The notes beneath the pieces were generated by a model. That model was given only the letters and a program-made list of their open reading frames with translations, was not told the DNA's origin and ran no database searches. From positions 1 through 43,337 of the forward strand of contig JAHFNO010000011.1 in the NCBI GenBank assembly GCA_023267275.1: a DNA stretch of 43,337 nt, in the 5' to 3' direction. Positions 4,438 through 39,837 of the stretch are shown one piece after another. The translations under genes were made by a program, and so were the position numbers. This DNA is from Candidatus Nomurabacteria bacterium. Lineage in GTDB: Bacteria > Patescibacteriota > Minisyncoccia > Phycocordibacterales > UBA9973. The stretch's first letter is position 1; each line of letters begins with the position of its first letter.

Positions 4438-4537
4438 ATAATGTCGAATCTTGTATCGATAAGCCGAATTCTGTACTCTTGCGAGTGACAATCATTTATC
4501 TGGGATTGCTGTTACCAACAACCTCTAGCGATTCTCC

Positions 4538-4594
4538 CTAAAACATCTTGTAAACAAGATGTTCGGGCGACCAATTGTAAACAATTGGTTTAGC
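4538..4594. repeat. Two-hairpin repeat copy 1, inside rnpB
   Basis: CTAAAACATCTTGtaaaCAAGATGTTCGGGCGACCAATTGtaaaCAATTGGTTTAG. Confidence 0.85.
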
Positions 4595-4681
4595 CCAAGC
4601 TTTCGCCTAAGGCACGATCTTGCATTCACGTAAGGATTTAGCCGTTTCATTCTTTGCTTCAATATATACAAAGATTTATCC

Positions 4682-4738
4682 CTAAAACATTTTGTGAACA
4701 AAATGTTCGGGCGACCAATTGTAAACAATTGGTTTAGC
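4682..4738. repeat. Two-hairpin repeat copy 2, inside rnpB
   Basis: CTAAAACATTTTGtgaaCAAAATGTTCGGGCGACCAATTGtaaaCAATTGGTTTAG. Confidence 0.85.
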
Positions 4739-4931
4739 CAGGGATACCATATCCTTTCGGAGTTTGGCGTCACTGCTCGCACCTCTATTGTTACCAACGA
4801 CGGGCGTTACCCGCTACGCGCTCCTTTCTTACGAAAGGGAATGTTCGGACTTTCCTCTGTGGTATATGCAAGCAAATATCACAGCGATTGTCTGATACAA
4901 GGACTTTCATAGTACCATTCATTTAAACACT

Positions 4932-17298: not shown

Positions 17299-18867
17299 AT
17301 GTTAAAAAAAGTCAAAATGAAGAAAAACATAGAACAAGTCAGAAAAGAACTAGAAAAAAAACTTGCTTCTATTGCAAAAGAGAAGGAGGCTGTTCGACGA
17401 AAATTGGTCATCACTGCGCGAGAACTTGCTGGTACTGCTAAGGAAAAAGAGGCTGTTCGACGTAAGCTTGTCGTAACCGCCAAAAAATTGGCATCAACGG
17501 CGAAGGGCAAGGAGGACGTTCGTCGCAAGCTCGTCATCACTGCCAAAAAACTTGCCACAACTGCTAAAGAGCTTGCCATCACTGCCAAAGAAAAAGAAGC
17601 TGTTCGACGAAAGCTTGTCGTAACCGCCAAAAAATTGGCAGTCTATACTACCGGTCTTGAAATTAAAGATATCAAACGAACAGCCGAATTGGTTGAACGG
17701 GTGAAGGAACTTGAATTATTGAATACCACACTCGACACTTCTCGGGCAAAAGAGCGAGCCATTTTGCTCTCAATTGGAGATGGATTGTTTGCCACTGATG
17801 AAAAGGGAAACATTATTTTTATAAACAACAAAGCGGAAAAATTACTCGGGAGAAAAAGTGATGAAGTGGTAGGGAAAGTATTTTCCGATTCCATTTTGAT
17901 GGAAGATGAAAAAGAAATACCTGTTTCATTTGAAGATCGTCCGGTGACGATGGCATTGCGTACGGGGAGTATTCGAGTAAATACTATTTCGTATTACTAT
18001 GTGCGAAAAAATAAAACAAAATTTCCTGTGGCGCTCACGGTAACTCCTGTAATTTTGGATGGAAAGATTATCGGCGCGATTGAGGTGTTTCGAGATGTAA
18101 CACAAGAGAAGGCTATCGATAAGGCAAAAAGTGAATTTATTTCCGTTGCGTCACATCAACTAAAAACACCAGCTACGGCAATCAAACTACTCTCAGAAAG
18201 ACTCTTGAGTGGAAAGATGGGAAAGTCTACGGAGAAGCAAAAAGAATATTTTACCGACATTCATTCTTCCAATGAACGAATGATCGATCTGGTGAATGCG
18301 TTGCTCAAAGTGTCACGTATTGAACTTGGAGCCTACACGATCAAAGTCCAATACAAGGATGCGTGTGCGATTGTGGAAAGTGTAATGAGTGAATTGAAAT
18401 ACATCATCAATAAAAAACGATTGAAGCACATCGTCACATTCTCTAAAAAGCCAGTCATGCTCATGCTCGACGAACATATGTTTCGCATTGCCATTGGCAA
18501 TCTGGTGACAAATGCAGTGCAATATACGAAAGAGCTCGGTGATATACGAGTCGACTGCAGGGTGGTAAACAAAGGACAAACGATAGGAAAAAAACTTATG
18601 GAAGATGCGTATTTTGTGGTTTCGGTTTCGGACAACGGATACGGTATTCCGCTTGTTGCGCAAAATAAAGTATTTACAAAATTTTTCCGTGCTGACAATG
18701 CGCGAGAAAAACATACAGATGGAACAGGATTGGGACTTTATATTGTGAAGTCGACACTCAATCAATCGGGAGGACTCATTTGGTTTACTTCACGAGAAAA
18801 TAAAGGATCCGTGTTTTATATGGCGATTCCCATGTCGGGAATGCGCGCCACACCGCTAAAAAAATAA
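17299..18867 (+). CDS. PAS-domain sensor histidine kinase with N-terminal Lys/Ala repeats
   Basis: FISVASHQLKTPATAIKLLSERLLSG (H-box), VSDNGYGIPL, DGTGLGLYIVKS (ATP-binding motifs); PAS-like segment ILLSIGDGLFATDEKGNIIFINNKAEKLLG. Confidence 0.93.
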   Translation: MLKKVKMKKNIEQVRKELEKKLASIAKEKEAVRRKLVITARELAGTAKEKEAVRRKLVVTAKKLASTAKGKEDVRRKLVITAKKLATTAKELAITAKEKEAVRRKLVVTAKKLAVYTTGLEIKDIKRTAELVERVKELELLNTTLDTSRAKERAILLSIGDGLFATDEKGNIIFINNKAEKLLGRKSDEVVGKVFSDSILMEDEKEIPVSFEDRPVTMALRTGSIRVNTISYYYVRKNKTKFPVALTVTPVILDGKIIGAIEVFRDVTQEKAIDKAKSEFISVASHQLKTPATAIKLLSERLLSGKMGKSTEKQKEYFTDIHSSNERMIDLVNALLKVSRIELGAYTIKVQYKDACAIVESVMSELKYIINKKRLKHIVTFSKKPVMLMLDEHMFRIAIGNLVTNAVQYTKELGDIRVDCRVVNKGQTIGKKLMEDAYFVVSVSDNGYGIPLVAQNKVFTKFFRADNAREKHTDGTGLGLYIVKSTLNQSGGLIWFTSRENKGSVFYMAIPMSGMRATPLKK

Positions 18868-23659: not shown

Positions 23660-23983
23660 CAGTAAGGCAGCTTCCTAGAGAAATCTAGGTCGAAAACGAG
23701 GTGAACTCGGTGAAGCCCCCCCTAAAACTTTTGTTTACAAAAGTTCGGGCGACCAATTGTTATAATTGGTTTAGTCTATGATTTTATGGGTAATACCGAG
23801 CCAAGCTCTGATGCAAATCAGAGAAGGTGTAGAGACTATCCCCGCCCGAACGTACCTTTCTGGTACGGGCAGGCCTTTATGGGAGTACTCCGACATTCTG
23901 TCGGCGGAAGCGCCTCGCTCCTCAATCATGTAAATGATAGGAGATGATATAGTCCACCCCTTTAAGTAATTTTAGGACAAGTG
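23660..23983 (+). other. Group I intron (IC3/Azoarcus-like), no ORF, in the tRNA-Asn anticodon
   Basis: 5' splice site after U: P1 CUGU paired with GCAG including a U.G; terminal G. Core motifs ACTCGGTGAAGCC, CCGAGCCAAGCT, GAAGGTGTAGAGACTA and GATATAGTCC. Confidence 0.9.
23722..23774. repeat. Two-hairpin repeat copy 3, inside the group I intron
   Basis: CTAAAACTTTTGtttaCAAAAGTTCGGGCGACCAATTGTTATAATTGGTTTAG. Confidence 0.85.
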
Positions 23984-24024
23984 TAATCGATTGGTCGCAG
24001 GTTCGATCCCTGCCGGGGGAGCCA

Positions 24025-25522
24025 GATAGGACTCAGCGAGTTCTAAAACCAAATTAAAGGGAGAAGAGACCGTAAAATATAGCTTTTCTCCATCAACGGT
24101 CGGGTTCTGAAGTAAATAATTCAGAAACGCTCTTTTTCCTGCTACGTCAGAACTGTTCTCGAAAATGGTTTTTGCACGACGTGCTACAGAAAGCACTGTG
24201 GCAACGGTCGTTTGGTAATCGTAGTCAGCTTTGCGGTGTTCAGAAAGTTCAACTTCCAAGAGCTGAAGCTTGTCGGAGAACTCTTGATGTTTTCTGTCAT
24301 AAACGTCCTTAGTAATACTCTGGCTGAGATATGCTTCGAGTAATCGGTCATCTTTTATTTTGATTTGCTCATATTCATCGCGCACGCGGACAATCTGCGC
24401 CTTGTGATAAACAACCTCGGCCTCGGTATTTTTGCGAAGCTCATCAACAAGCCCAATCTGTGCTTCCTCTGTGATGCTCTCAAAACGCTCCAAAAGCTCG
24501 TACACGGGCTTCAGGAAGTGCTTCTCATTCACATACTCTCTACGACAAATCTTTTTGCCATTAGTGCAAGAACCGATATTATATTCTTTTCCACTCGGCT
24601 TGATTGTATGCTCGAATGTAATCGCGCAATCACATCTATGGCATTTCAATAGCCCACCAAAAATAAACTCTCGTGAAAGAGCTTTGTGTAGGTGCTGATT
24701 GCGCTTCTGCCGCACGTCTTGGCATCGCTCAAAAATATCGCGTGATATAAGGCGAGGATATTTGTGTTCCCAAGAGCCATACTTTTTCGATGTCGCAATA
24801 CCGCAGTAAAAACTATCCTTCAGCATGTTCTCAATACAGCTTTTTGATAGTGTAAAACCATTCAAGCTACGCAAGCCCTCGTTGGTCATCTGTATTCGTA
24901 TCGTCTCTAGGGAATAATTACCGGTAACATACAACTCAAACATCTTGCGGACAAGGTGCTCGCGGTCGGGGTCGAGAATAATATCCTTTCGCAGTCGCTT
25001 TTCGGCATCGAGTGAGACATTGAGATAGCCCAAGCGCACCTGTCCTGTCCACTCGCCATTTCTGCGCTTCTGTTCAAACGCACGGCGCACGTTATCGCCG
25101 ATAGCATCGGAGTAGTATTTTGCCAAACCCAAACTCATACTGAATTGGAACTTTTCAACAGCAGACATTTGGCTGTTGACTACTTGGCCTTCGGATACGA
25201 AATGAAGCTCTATTTTTCCATCAAGAGCCATTTCGTAAAGTAAAGCAACACGCTTGTCGAATACGCTTCGTGAGAGGCGGTCTACTTTGTCGAAGCACAC
25301 AGCAATTTTCTCTTTGCTTGCTTCCTCTTGGATGCGCTCGACAATCACATCAAACTCGTCGCGCTTGGTCTTGTATGCACTTTCCTCAAAGCTATACGCT
25401 TCGATAAGTACAAACCCTTTCTTTTCGCGGTATTTTTTTTGTCGCTCTGCTTGCGCAGGCAAAGAATTGCCTGCATCTTTTTGTTCTAGTGTTGATACTC
25501 GTCCGATTTCAATGCTTCTCAT
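24025..25522 (-). CDS. Large serine recombinase
   Basis: EIGRVSTLEQKDAGNSLPAQAERQ, CFDKVDRLSRS, recombinase domain FYCGIATSKKYGSWEHKYP and a zinc-ribbon-like CHRCDCAITFEH...; the ORF runs on through the tRNA (to 23972, tail LAPPAGIEPATNRLHLS). Confidence 0.93.
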
Positions 25523-29852: not shown

Positions 29853-29929
29853 GAACCGAGTTTACTCTAGTTTACATATTACTTCAATCTTTGCTATGCT
29901 GTAAGCACAACCGAATATGTGCGCAGTAA

Positions 29930-30074
29930 CCTAACCCGTCGAGCAATCGGCGGTATGGCGAAAGTGAGTCGTATAAGGCACAAAGAACCCAACATGTTGG
30001 GGTTGCCTTATACGCCGCATCTGGAAACGGGTGCGCAGGGTTTAATAGCCCTGACCTACGTGTTGGGTTTTTTG
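29930..30074 (+). ncRNA. Candidate structured RNA 'copy 1' (GNRA hairpin, pseudoknot, GAAA hairpin, UUAA-loop hairpin)
   Basis: P1 CCGTCGA-GCAA-TCGGCGG (29936-29953); P2 CGTATAAGGCA/TGCCTTATACG (29970-29980/30004-30014); PK AACCCAACA/TGTTGGGTT (29986-29994/30061-30069); P3 GCATCTG-GAAA-CGGGTGC (30017-30034); P4 CAGGG-tttaatag-CCCTG (30036-30053). Confidence 0.8.
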
Positions 30075-30123
30075 CGTCCCAAAACAGGATTTACAAATAG
30101 CATCGCAAAACAAAAAGTAGAGT

Positions 30124-30516
30124 ATGGGAAAAGTAATCTTGGGAATTGTAGGAGTAATAGCCGTAATTGCCTTCATTGGAAATCTTGGTGGGTCATCGAG
30201 TCCGTCGAGTACAAGCACACCGGCTCCATCGACCAGTGTTGCCATTGGAGAAAATGGATACCTCCGAAACTCGGCAAATCCAATCATGGTTCCAATCAGC
30301 AAGTCGATTTTTGACGAGACGATGAAGCTCTCTGTCGCTGGCGATACCGCAGGCCTCGCTCGCATGGTAGTGGCAGGAGAAATCTTGATGGTCGATAACG
30401 GCACGCAAGTGAAAGTCATCGACAAAAACTTCGCTTCAACCGAGGTTCGGATTATGAGTGGCAAAAACTATGGAGAGTCCGGATGGGTTCCTATGGAGTT
30501 TGTTTCCAAAAATTAG
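30124..30516 (+). CDS. Membrane-anchored hypothetical protein, possibly SH3-like
   Basis: N-terminal TM, Ser/Thr/Pro linker, C-terminal ...NGTQVKVIDKNFASTEVRIMSGKNYGESGWVPMEFV. Confidence 0.7.
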   Translation: MGKVILGIVGVIAVIAFIGNLGGSSSPSSTSTPAPSTSVAIGENGYLRNSANPIMVPISKSIFDETMKLSVAGDTAGLARMVVAGEILMVDNGTQVKVIDKNFASTEVRIMSGKNYGESGWVPMEFVSKN

Positions 30517-31256: not shown

Positions 31257-31625
31257 ATGTTTGAAACAAAAACCATCGTGTGCACGAGATGTGAGCAGAC
31301 CGGAACGGCCAAGACAAGAACAAAAGGCAATTTTCTGATTGAGCTTATCCTCTGGCTCTGCTTCTTTGTTCCGGGCATCATTTATTCCATCTGGCGCATA
31401 TCGAGCCGCGAGAAAGTATGCCGAAACTGTGGCAGTACGGAAATCGTACCGGCCGACAGTCCGGCAGGCAAGAAAATCCTCGCGCGAGCGCACATTGGCG
31501 CAACCGCTCCGATTGAACCGGCAAAGAACGCGGCAACGCAGGTTGCGGAGCTATTCAAGCTCAAAGAACAGGGTGCTATTACGGAGGATGAGTTCAAGGC
31601 GCATAAGGCGAAATTGTTGAGCTAA
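31257..31625 (+). CDS. Zinc-ribbon / TM / SHOCT-tail protein
   Basis: CTRCEQTG...CRNCGST zinc-ribbon-like, one TM, C-terminal AELFKLKEQGAITEDEFKAHKAKLLS (SHOCT). Confidence 0.8.
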   Translation: MFETKTIVCTRCEQTGTAKTRTKGNFLIELILWLCFFVPGIIYSIWRISSREKVCRNCGSTEIVPADSPAGKKILARAHIGATAPIEPAKNAATQVAELFKLKEQGAITEDEFKAHKAKLLS

Positions 31626-34268: not shown

Positions 34269-35978
34269 TTATAACGTTCTGAACTCGTCCGTCCGAGGGA
34301 GCAGAGTAGAAAAAACAGGCGAAATTTCGCTTGTTTTTTTGTTTAAGCTTTTGTTTACAAAGCAATTTTTAGGTTCGAACTTATCATCTTTCGACTTTGC
34401 CTTTTTTATACCTTCGATCAGCTTGTTTATAGCTTTCGTGTTGCAAATACTGAGTTCTTTCTCATCCCACACTAGGTTCGAACCAAGCTTGGCCAAGATA
34501 GTCCTTTTGGCCTGAACCGTACCTTTTTTCAAAGTTTCCGTAAGACAGAGAGTAAGATCGACGATCTCGTTCATTCTTGCATACCAATCGACATCGTCCT
34601 TCTCGCCCTCATTCACATGGTATTTTTTTTCTAACGCCTTCAGATCGAGTGCGTATTCTTCAGGGCTGACTTGCTCGTCGCGCAACATTTCGCGCAAGCG
34701 AGTTTTCTTATGATCAAACTCCGCGTTGTTTGACTCAATCATTTTCTTTTTAAAAATCTTGTCGTTGATCTCCTTCTCCTTTAGCTCCTCGATGTATTGC
34801 TTCGACCAGTTGGCTAGATCGACAGAAAAATTCAAATTTTCTTGAACAAAGTGAATGACCTTTTCCAATACCTTGTTTTCGGGAATTGACACATAGTCCA
34901 ATTTCGACTTTTTCTTTTTTACGTTGTAATAGTGAACATACCCTAAATATTTAGGGTGCTGTAGTTGCGTAATCTCTCTACCGCACTGAGGACAGTGCGT
35001 TTTACTTCTATACGCAAACTTATGCTTGCAGTCACAGATAAGCTGATATTTCACGTCCTGCCCGATGAAATTACCCTCAGGAGAAGCTATAAAGCCGGAA
35101 AATATTGTTTTATGTTCCTGAGTTTTCGGTATATTGTTTCTGGCAATAATCATTTTAATTTTATTGTGTTGATCCTCTGTAATCAGCCGAGGCAGTTTTG
35201 GATCAAGTTCAAATCTCTCGCCCTTACTATCAAAGAAAAATCCTGCGTAAACTGGGTCTGGGAGCAATTCATAAATACGGGAGTGAGCAATGAAATGCCC
35301 ACCAATTTTCTTTCGTTTTATCGTGTTTAATTTCAATTCATTAATAGCGTATTCATATATTTTCCCGGCCGAGTATGTACCTGTTAAAAACATATCAAGT
35401 AGAATTTTTATTTTAGGCAATCTCTCTTCGTCTACCATCCACCTGCGGTTTCCCTTTTCCTCAGTTCTATCATTCAAAAAACCCAGAGAAGAAATTCCGT
35501 GCGGCACACCAAGTCGAGCTTTCTTATCGTGGCCGCGCTTAACGTTTACTGAAAGTTCTTTAACAAATTGTTTTCCCTGGCTAAATTCGACAGACATGAC
35601 GATCACGTTGTCCCAAGGATAGAACACTTTATCGTGCGTTATTATTGCCTTCAGGACACCTGAGGAAAGGAGATCAATGATTTGCCCACCCTCCGTCATA
35701 TTTCGAGCGAGACGGTCGAGTTTCCAACAGACAATGCTATCAATCTCACCCTTGAGGATCATCGACATCATGCGCGAGAACTCGGGACGCTCGTTTTCGG
35801 TTTTTGCAGATTTTGCTTCTTTGAATACTTCCGTAAAAACAGGAAGCTTGTGGTACTCGGCCATTTTTGCCGCCGCGTCGATTTGTGAGTCGATCGAGAG
35901 CATCTGCTTGTCCTCCGCTTCGCTTGATTTACGATAGTAGCCGCCGGGGCGTAATTTTGTGAAATCTAATGGGTTCAT
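34269..35978 (-). CDS. Large serine recombinase (second)
   Basis: GGYYRKSSEAEDKQMLSIDSQIDAAAKMAEYHKL, VCWKLDRLARNMTEGGQIIDLL, CDCKHKFAYRSKTHCPQCG zinc ribbon. Confidence 0.92.
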   Translation of the reverse strand: MNPLDFTKLRPGGYYRKSSEAEDKQMLSIDSQIDAAAKMAEYHKLPVFTEVFKEAKSAKTENERPEFSRMMSMILKGEIDSIVCWKLDRLARNMTEGGQIIDLLSSGVLKAIITHDKVFYPWDNVIVMSVEFSQGKQFVKELSVNVKRGHDKKARLGVPHGISSLGFLNDRTEEKGNRRWMVDEERLPKIKILLDMFLTGTYSAGKIYEYAINELKLNTIKRKKIGGHFIAHSRIYELLPDPVYAGFFFDSKGERFELDPKLPRLITEDQHNKIKMIIARNNIPKTQEHKTIFSGFIASPEGNFIGQDVKYQLICDCKHKFAYRSKTHCPQCGREITQLQHPKYLGYVHYYNVKKKKSKLDYVSIPENKVLEKVIHFVQENLNFSVDLANWSKQYIEELKEKEINDKIFKKKMIESNNAEFDHKKTRLREMLRDEQVSPEEYALDLKALEKKYHVNEGEKDDVDWYARMNEIVDLTLCLTETLKKGTVQAKRTILAKLGSNLVWDEKELSICNTKAINKLIEGIKKAKSKDDKFEPKNCFVNKSLNKKTSEISPVFSTLLPRTDEFRTL

Positions 35979-38612: not shown

Positions 38613-38912
38613 TTACCCCAAAATCTTCGCCTTGTGCGCCTTGAACTCGTCCTCGGTAATAGCTCCATCCTGCTTCAGCTTGAATAACTCTGCAAGCTCA
38701 CTCGCAGTGTTCTTGCTTGGTTCGGTCGTTTTGATTACTACCGCCGGTGCTGCATCTTTCGAGAGTGCCCACGACAAAGCGACGATCCAGCCGATGCACG
38801 TCCATCCTAGGAAAAAATTAACTACGAGAATTGAACTCGCGTTTTTCTTTTTGCGCGAGTACGCCGAGATCGAGGGAATAAAATATAAAATTATGAGTAA
38901 AAATATCAACAT
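38613..38912 (-). CDS. Superinfection-immunity-like membrane protein with SHOCT tail
   Basis: SSILVVNFFLGWTCIGWIVALSWAL is Imm_superinfect-like; tail AELFKLKQDGAITEDEFKAHKAKILG. Start set near MLIFLLIILYF (approximate). Confidence 0.8.
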   Translation of the reverse strand: MLIFLLIILYFIPSISAYSRKKKNASSILVVNFFLGWTCIGWIVALSWALSKDAAPAVVIKTTEPSKNTASELAELFKLKQDGAITEDEFKAHKAKILG

Positions 38913-39074
38913 GGGGGTATTTTTTGTAAAAATTGGTAATAGTGGGCGGTCACGCGGGGCGACGCTTGCCCACGTTCGCCACACGTTGCGCCACGTGCCG
39001 ACATTCTCGGCAGATCGGTATCATTTACCGATCAGGGCAATTTATACCCCACGTGCGCGAACATGGTGCGAGGG

Positions 39075-39560
39075 CTAGAGGCAGGAAGTCGCCGAACCGA
39101 GAGGATAGCTCTCAACTTTCGCTACGCCGGTCGAGTCGCTACAAGCGTACTCGCTGTTATCGCTGAGTGGCGCAGATGCCGCCCATGCCGATCCGTCTTT
39201 TGCCTCGTTGCAGACGTGCCTGTCCCTTCCGGCGATTTCTGCGCCACTGAGCAAGTGCAAGAAATCCGCATCGGAACACACGCCCTTGTAGGTCGCATCG
39301 TTACCGGTCGAAGAGTAATACAATTCGGCTTGTGCGCGAGCTGAAGACATTACGCCTTGGATTTTTGCATCCATCGCAGTGCTACGCGCGCTGTCCAAGC
39401 TGTCGGAAACGGCACTGCCGAGCGTGTCGGTAATGACGTGCTGTATCTGGTACGACTTGTATTCCATACCGATCAAAAATCCGATGAGTAAAAGCACAAT
39501 CGAAAAAACAATTTTCCCTGTCTGCGTTGCAAAGAACTTGTCGCTGTCGCTTTGGTTCAT
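39075..39560 (-). CDS. Membrane-anchored protein with type IV pilin-like C-terminal head
   Basis: TM near N-term (GKIVFSIVLLLIGFLIGMEY); IQGVMSSARAQAELYYSSTGNDATYKGVCSD resembles CPR pilin-like head sequences, but no GFTLIE prepilin motif. Confidence 0.65.
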   Translation of the reverse strand: MNQSDSDKFFATQTGKIVFSIVLLLIGFLIGMEYKSYQIQHVITDTLGSAVSDSLDSARSTAMDAKIQGVMSSARAQAELYYSSTGNDATYKGVCSDADFLHLLSGAEIAGRDRHVCNEAKDGSAWAASAPLSDNSEYACSDSTGVAKVESYPLGSATSCL

Positions 39561-39603: not shown

Positions 39604-39751
39604 CAACAAAGAACCCGTCACAGAGAGCGAGGGGTTTTAATCCCTCCATACACCTTTCGATGTACGGCCAACAACGACAGCCCCCGTATGACGGGTTCTT
39701 TATCGTTGTTGGTCTTTTTTCACCATACCGTCGATTGCTCGACGGGTTAGG
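39604..39751 (-). ncRNA. Candidate structured RNA 'copy 2', same architecture as 29930-30074
   Basis: Minus strand: CCTAACCCGTCGAGCAATCGACGGTATGG; P2 CCAACAACGA/TCGTTGTTGG; PK AAAGAACCCGTCA/TGACGGGTTCTTT; P3 CCGTACATC-GAAA-GGTGTATGG; P4 GAGGG-attaaaa-CCCCTC. Confidence 0.8.
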
Positions 39752-39837
39752 CTACTCGTATTCAGTTGTGATTAAAGTATAGCATTTTGGATTCATCATT
39801 AAAACACATCTTTACTTAAGTGCTTATTTAAGAGAGA

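Follow-up and report, generated by a model that had tools for sequence, protein, structure and literature searches.

The structured RNA encoded at positions 29,930 to 30,074 (copy 1), and a second copy on the opposite strand of the window (the whole stretch of 43,337 nucleotides analysed here), are LOOT RNAs, members of Rfam family RF03000. We consider it on balance probable that LOOT is a cis-regulatory 5′ leader of cargo genes carried by serine-recombinase elements, and that a substantial minority of copies can adopt a competing second fold. What is new is a pseudoknot strand lying beyond the Rfam model, a locus-specific mimic of the start-codon region and the link to serine recombinases.

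Both window copies match RF03000 over its full length (model positions 1-121 of 121), with cmscan scores of 69.2 bits (E 4.3e-11) for copy 1 and 84.2 bits (E 1.3e-14) for copy 2. Since both exceed the gathering score of 46.4 bits, the original prediction of a new RNA family falls. The copies share P1/P1a, P2, P3 and P4 with the family; the conserved P1 motif CCUAAMCC ... GGYAUGG is present as CCTAACCC ... GGTATGG in both, and both have GAAA loops in P3, which are of the GNRA type. LOOT RNA reportedly came from Breaker/Weinberg metagenomic screens. No function for it emerged from literature searches that covered what LOOT does, riboswitches of Patescibacteria and serine-recombinase elements. 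LOOT is thus a known Rfam family whose function is, so far as the literature searched shows, unassigned.

There are further homologues. The genome of the window (G000) has a third copy (G000:C1:16443-16580), and RF03000 matches were found in 85 of 389 genomes sampled from its phylum, with at most 7 copies per genome. Among the matches listed from a DNA-pattern scan of GTDB, record titles are almost all of Patescibacteria/CPR (Nomurabacteria, Woesebacteria, Saccharibacteria, Gracilibacteria, Uhrbacteria, WWE3 and others) or of bacteria with no lineage in the title; a few of those listed are titled Bathyarchaeota, Bacteroidales, Bacteroidetes or Omnitrophota, an assignment that rests on titles and may reflect misbinning. 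LOOT-like RNAs also occur on viral-collection contigs (L160, L166, L179, L222, L242, L244 and L248).

A separate observation concerns another RNA of the window. The RNase P RNA gene (4444-4903, minus strand) carries a two-hairpin repeat of about 62 nt twice, at 4532-4595 and 4676-4739, with partial copies at 1015-1047 (near the 16S end) and 23722-23754. The full two-hairpin pattern occurs only twice in the genome, both times in rnpB.

All the elements first noted in copy 1 are present (Table 1). P1a holds a GCAA-capped hairpin, and the 11-bp P2 is followed by a GAAA-capped hairpin (30017-30034) and by the hairpin CAGGGTT-TAAT-AGCCCTG (30036-30053). In the P2 loop, AACCCAACA (29986-29994) is complementary to TGTTGGGTT (30061-30069); a T-run occupies 30068-30073 and the next ATG is at 30124. 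The predicted folds are stable, with z-scores of -4.6 for copy 1 (29928-30072) and -6.5 for copy 2 (39753-39611), and in neither case was any of 200 shuffles as stable. Together with the covariation of the pseudoknot described below, this supports the proposal that the element functions as RNA.

Table 1 Features of the two LOOT loci in the window
Feature	Positions	Strand	Basis
LOOT RNA copy 1 (P1/P1a, P2, P3, P4)	29928..30053	+	cmscan
P2 5′ strand (X), copy 1, CGTATAAGGCA	29970..29980	+	11 bp with 30004-30014
P2 3′ strand (X′), copy 1, TGCCTTATACG	30004..30014	+	11 bp with 29970-29980
Pseudoknot 5′ strand (A), P2 loop, copy 1	29981..30000	+	A:B score 16.7; family covariation
Pseudoknot 3′ strand (B) and T-run, copy 1, outside Rfam model	30055..30074	+	sequence, family covariation
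Possible alternative partner (C, CCCAA) of B, copy 1	30078..30082	+	score 5.5, weak alone
Promoter-like -10 (TGC-TATGCT), upstream of copy 1	29895..29900	+	consensus match only
Downstream gene of copy 1: 130-aa protein, hydrophobic N terminus	30124..30516	+	ORF
Serine recombinase gene, divergent from copy 1 and 4.7 kb upstream of it	23972..25522	-	PF00239 match G000:C3:25049-25504
Large serine recombinase gene between the LOOT copies	34269..35978	-	PF00239 1.4e-17, PF07508 2.6e-4
LOOT RNA copy 2	39629..39753	-	cmscan; fold z-score
P2 5′ strand (X), copy 2	39701..39712	-	sequence
P2 3′ strand (X′), copy 2	39668..39679	-	can pair with codons 4-8 of downstream gene
Pseudoknot 5′ strand (A), copy 2	39682..39700	-	sequence pairing
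Pseudoknot 3′ strand (B), copy 2, outside Rfam model	39609..39627	-	family covariation
Start-region stretch CGACAGCGACA (+11 to +21 of gene) pairing with copy 2 X′	39539..39549	-	score 10.0
Promoter-like -10 (TGC-TATACT), upstream of copy 2	39776..39781	-	sequence, family pattern
Downstream gene of copy 2: 161-aa predicted membrane protein	39075..39560	-	ORF

The H-type pseudoknot proposed for copy 1 is borne out across the family. We extracted 128 LOOT copies with their flanks, and nearly all have a strand complementary to the P2 loop just 3′ of the Rfam model; the model's end (30053 in copy 1) falls 7 nt short of this pairing strand. In a MAFFT alignment of 83 copies, made with no knowledge of structure, strands A and B fall on one antidiagonal. 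The helix has 16 bp, 95.7% of its cells are paired and 13 of the 16 pairs show changes on both sides. When the P3 helix is included as a reference, 96.6% of cells pair, compared with 39-46% after sliding the partner by 1-3 columns, and the covariation measures of the two helices were reached by none of 500 shuffles. The two window copies themselves differ in a compensatory manner (AACCCAACA/TGTTGGGTT in copy 1, AACCCGTCA/TGACGGGTT in copy 2). Read on the LOOT strand, both helices contain many G-U pairs, which points to RNA of that strand. Judged by covariation, the pseudoknot is a real structural element beyond the end of the Rfam model. Many cross-covariations in LOOT were reported by Rivas et al. 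2020 (PMC7657543), and two covarying pairs were added to LOOT from R-scape in Rfam 15 (PMC11701678); despite these, the RF03000 model used here still ends before strand B. It also ends before the start region.

The run of T residues at B raises the question of termination. LOOT could be a pseudoknot-based transcription attenuator, in which the A:B helix and T-run would form an intrinsic terminator and local pairing of A (of the GCUC/GAGC type) the antiterminator; LOOT folding would then switch the gene off and any pairing at the start region would be a second layer. U-rich sequence follows A:B in nearly all copies, A:B and local loop pairing both exist and the geometry of a helix followed by a U-run fits, although terminator hairpins are not usually pseudoknots. 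In copy 1 of the window a G+C-rich helix runs straight into an uninterrupted U-run, but in many relatives the run is reduced to TTTGTGT. Moreover, the T-run positions are base-paired with an A-rich strand (columns 19-24 with 117-122), and several of these pairs change on both sides, so the stretch looks structural, at least in part. The start codon, too, usually follows 25-50 nt after the pseudoknot. We regard attenuation of this kind as unlikely, and favour a leader that would act at the start codon.

The position of LOOT indicates a 5′ leader of the downstream gene, as was proposed for copy 1 at the head of an accessory gene. Across the family, with start codons called mechanically, the start codon lies a median of 38 nt after strand B (quartiles 30-49); the gap is 49 nt for copy 1 and 48 nt for copy 2. 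An extended -10 element (TGnTATAAT-like) is found in many copies, and -10-like hexamers are most frequent about 20-30 nt before LOOT begins. Both window leaders have the string GGATTTAC[AT]AATAGCA between B and the gene (about 30087-30104, plus strand; 39593-39576, minus strand), and similar strings occur in some related leaders (G376, L244, L248).

The downstream proteins are diverse. The 130-aa protein behind copy 1 has no Pfam or NCBIfam match, and homologues near other LOOTs are 63% (G376) and 37% (G298) identical; the 161-aa protein behind copy 2 is 61% identical to the product of a gene behind a LOOT in G367. Among 97 downstream proteins scanned, N6_N4 methylase (5), SNase (5), zinc-ribbon (5), Glucodextran_B (4) and SHOCT (3) matches were found, with single proteins matching C-5 and D12 methylases; PADLOC was also run. 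By eye, many of the others resemble small membrane or secreted proteins. Both window cargo sets also include related SHOCT-domain proteins of about 122 aa (31257-31625, plus strand; 38613-38984, minus strand), the latter matching the superinfection immunity family PF14373 (5.7e-17).

Two other roles were considered and rejected. Peptide-leader attenuation would use the conserved AUG in P1, which opens no ORF of conserved length or end; the lengths of the resulting uORFs vary widely, like those of other frames. A type III toxin-antitoxin RNA, in which tandem repeats precede a single toxin family, does not fit LOOT units that are single and sit ahead of diverse proteins. The one near-tandem pair, in L078 (G114:C3), has its LOOTs at 17612 and 17988 with a short ORF of 57 aa between them.

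LOOT appears to be a leader of cargo genes in serine-recombinase elements, because recombinase genes lie near most copies. In 26 well-assembled genomes, 34 of 43 LOOTs have a gene with a resolvase domain within 10 kb (3.8 expected), and for 24 of these 34 the recombinase gene is upstream and divergent. The window has two such genes (Table 1), the one between the LOOT copies giving XisF/Ccr-like matches below cut-offs. On contig 6 of G367, a stretch of about 55 kb contains four LOOTs and as many recombinase genes, an arrangement like stacked elements. Several LOOTs are at or near contig ends (G098:C25, G098:C40, G098:C88, G142:C19, G175:C61, G199:C3 and G242:C8), as expected of a repeated or mobile sequence that breaks assemblies.

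In a subset of LOOTs the P2 5′ strand (X) is repeated immediately ahead of the following gene's start codon; in G121, for example, AAGCCGTTCAGAGTAT in P2 recurs as AAGCCGTTCAGAGTATg over a start codon. Of 122 copies, 29 have an exact X repeat of at least 9 nt, where swapping the downstream regions gives an expectation of 0.4. The repeats are confined to the 150 nt after B on the same strand, and these 122 copies show no enrichment upstream, at 150-450 nt downstream or on the opposite strand. We then scored the pairing of X′ with the start region (-45 to +33), taking a score of at least 9 as the threshold. This was reached by 25 of 99 leaders in a first set (1.05 expected), in which pairing with coding-region and upstream controls was at background, and by 19 of 85 (0.85 expected) in a second set, fetched by DNA pattern and freed of copies whose P2 core was identical to one in the first. 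Combined, 44 of 184 leaders pair at this level, against a mean of 2.9 and a maximum of 12 in 20,000 permutations; the swap null ignores phylogeny. The 44 leaders carry 43 distinct X′ sequences; that X sequences are almost never repeated among the positives argues for many separate origins. The pairing mostly falls at -15 to -4. In three groups of homologous downstream genes with different X, each gene carries its own matching copy (MNNENTE in G255 and G367; MKKCPYCAEE-like in G114, G153 and G315; a related pair in G112 and G236). On the viral-collection contigs, L160 and L248 carry an X copy before the start codon as well. For about three quarters of the 184 leaders start-region pairing is not detectable, so the mechanism may be confined to a subclass, or the other leaders may have a different one.

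Copy 2 is one of the positives: its sequence encodes a predicted pairing of X′ with the start region that spans 11 nt and would arise by chance at about 0.5% per locus (0.99/184, permutations). The homologue of its gene in G367 has an X copy of 11-12 nt at -13. In the third copy of the window's genome the start-region pairing is 9 bp, at -13 to -5.

An X′ strand antisense to a start region, a promoter-like box of its own, a T-run and a stable fold are also what a trans-acting small RNA (Rfam type: Gene; sRNA) with X′ as its seed would have. The target seen here is nonetheless the adjacent downstream gene, and a leader is the better match for the tight spacing to it. Across 1.39 Mb of flanks X shows no enrichment elsewhere (15 occurrences, 12 in a reversed control), the only exact match in G000 to the third copy's full X is within that LOOT's own P2, and pairing with other LOOT leaders of the same genome is not clearly above background (4.0% against 2.1% at a score of at least 9, 125 pairs). 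We consider a small RNA improbable; the sequence data support X′ targeting in cis rather than in trans.

The strong recombinase linkage, and direct repeats (X and its copy) that flank a segment, might suggest that the element acts as DNA, as a site of attachment or recombination, or that it is a ribozyme of an uncharacterised kind, self-cleaving or splicing, for which X and its copy would be guide and target. This is highly improbable in our judgement. The frequent G-U pairs on the LOOT strand speak for RNA, X′ co-varies with X in a way that target-site duplication leaves unexplained, and LOOTs lie at a narrow distance from start codons and not at element ends, which were mapped only roughly.

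Strand B, like X′, has a second potential partner. A complementary strand (C) lies just downstream of the T-run in 64 of 202 copies at a score of at least 8 (13.2 expected), whereas a complement sought 120 nt away is found at background level. The presence of C shows no significant association with that of an X copy (p = 0.16). In 28 leaders with start-region pairing, mean energies were -79.8 kcal/mol with P2 enforced and -76.7 kcal/mol with X′:X-copy pairing enforced, so the two folds are close before any contribution of the pseudoknot, whose duplex alone averages about -20 kcal/mol. Sequence thus supports two competing folds in a minority of copies. The original prediction had two exclusive folds for copy 1, by local pairing of strand A (CCCAACA with TGTTGGG). 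That pairing is present and the idea of exclusive folds is supported, but the alternatives are wider than was proposed: X′ can pair with the start region of the gene, and B with the strand just downstream. B:C pairing is strong in the third copy (9.5). For copy 1, X′ finds in the start region only GUAUGGG (30122-30128; score 6.0, background level, not significant), and its B:C score (Table 1) is also background, the enrichment of C holding at the level of the family only. Because both alternative pairings are at background, only the LOOT fold and pseudoknot are supported for copy 1.

Fold I, the LOOT fold, comprises P2 (X:X′) and the pseudoknot of the P2 loop with B. In fold II, which a substantial minority of leaders encode, X′ would pair instead with the repeat of X in the start region, and B with C just downstream. 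The two cannot occur together. We propose that fold I would leave the start codon free and the gene on, and that fold II would cover the start codon and turn the gene off. A signal acting on the pseudoknotted core, by stabilising or disrupting it, may set the balance. Fold I could also end transcription at the T-run behind B, and control would then have the opposite sign. More tentatively, LOOT may possibly be a widespread switch, perhaps a riboswitch class, on the cargo of Patescibacteria serine-recombinase elements, with P2 re-tuned at each locus to the start of its own gene, so that a single conserved scaffold might suit any captured gene.

LOOT thereby gains a concrete, testable candidate mechanism, strand exchange at the start codon, a structural element that it lacked, the pseudoknot, and a setting. 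The setting is the cargo of serine-recombinase elements in Patescibacteria, among which are restriction-modification methylases and surface proteins. If the proposal is true, one RNA scaffold would be fitted by base-pairing to many unrelated genes, an uncommon way to control horizontally acquired genes in bacteria with very small genomes.

Translational riboswitches resemble LOOT in their leader position, in a pseudoknotted core and, as predicted for a minority of LOOTs, in a strand shared between a core helix and start-codon sequestration. Unlike theirs, the genes downstream of LOOT are functionally diverse accessory genes rather than one pathway, no ligand is known and the expression platform is detectable in only about a quarter of leaders, the fold that would hide the start region being significant for the family (44/184) and for copy 2, not for copy 1. 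Terminator-embedded or pseudoknot attenuators, such as the HMP-PP riboswitch (PMC6478431), share with LOOT a structured leader whose switch helix can be followed by a U-run. In LOOT the U-run is often interrupted and is itself paired, and termination is putative.
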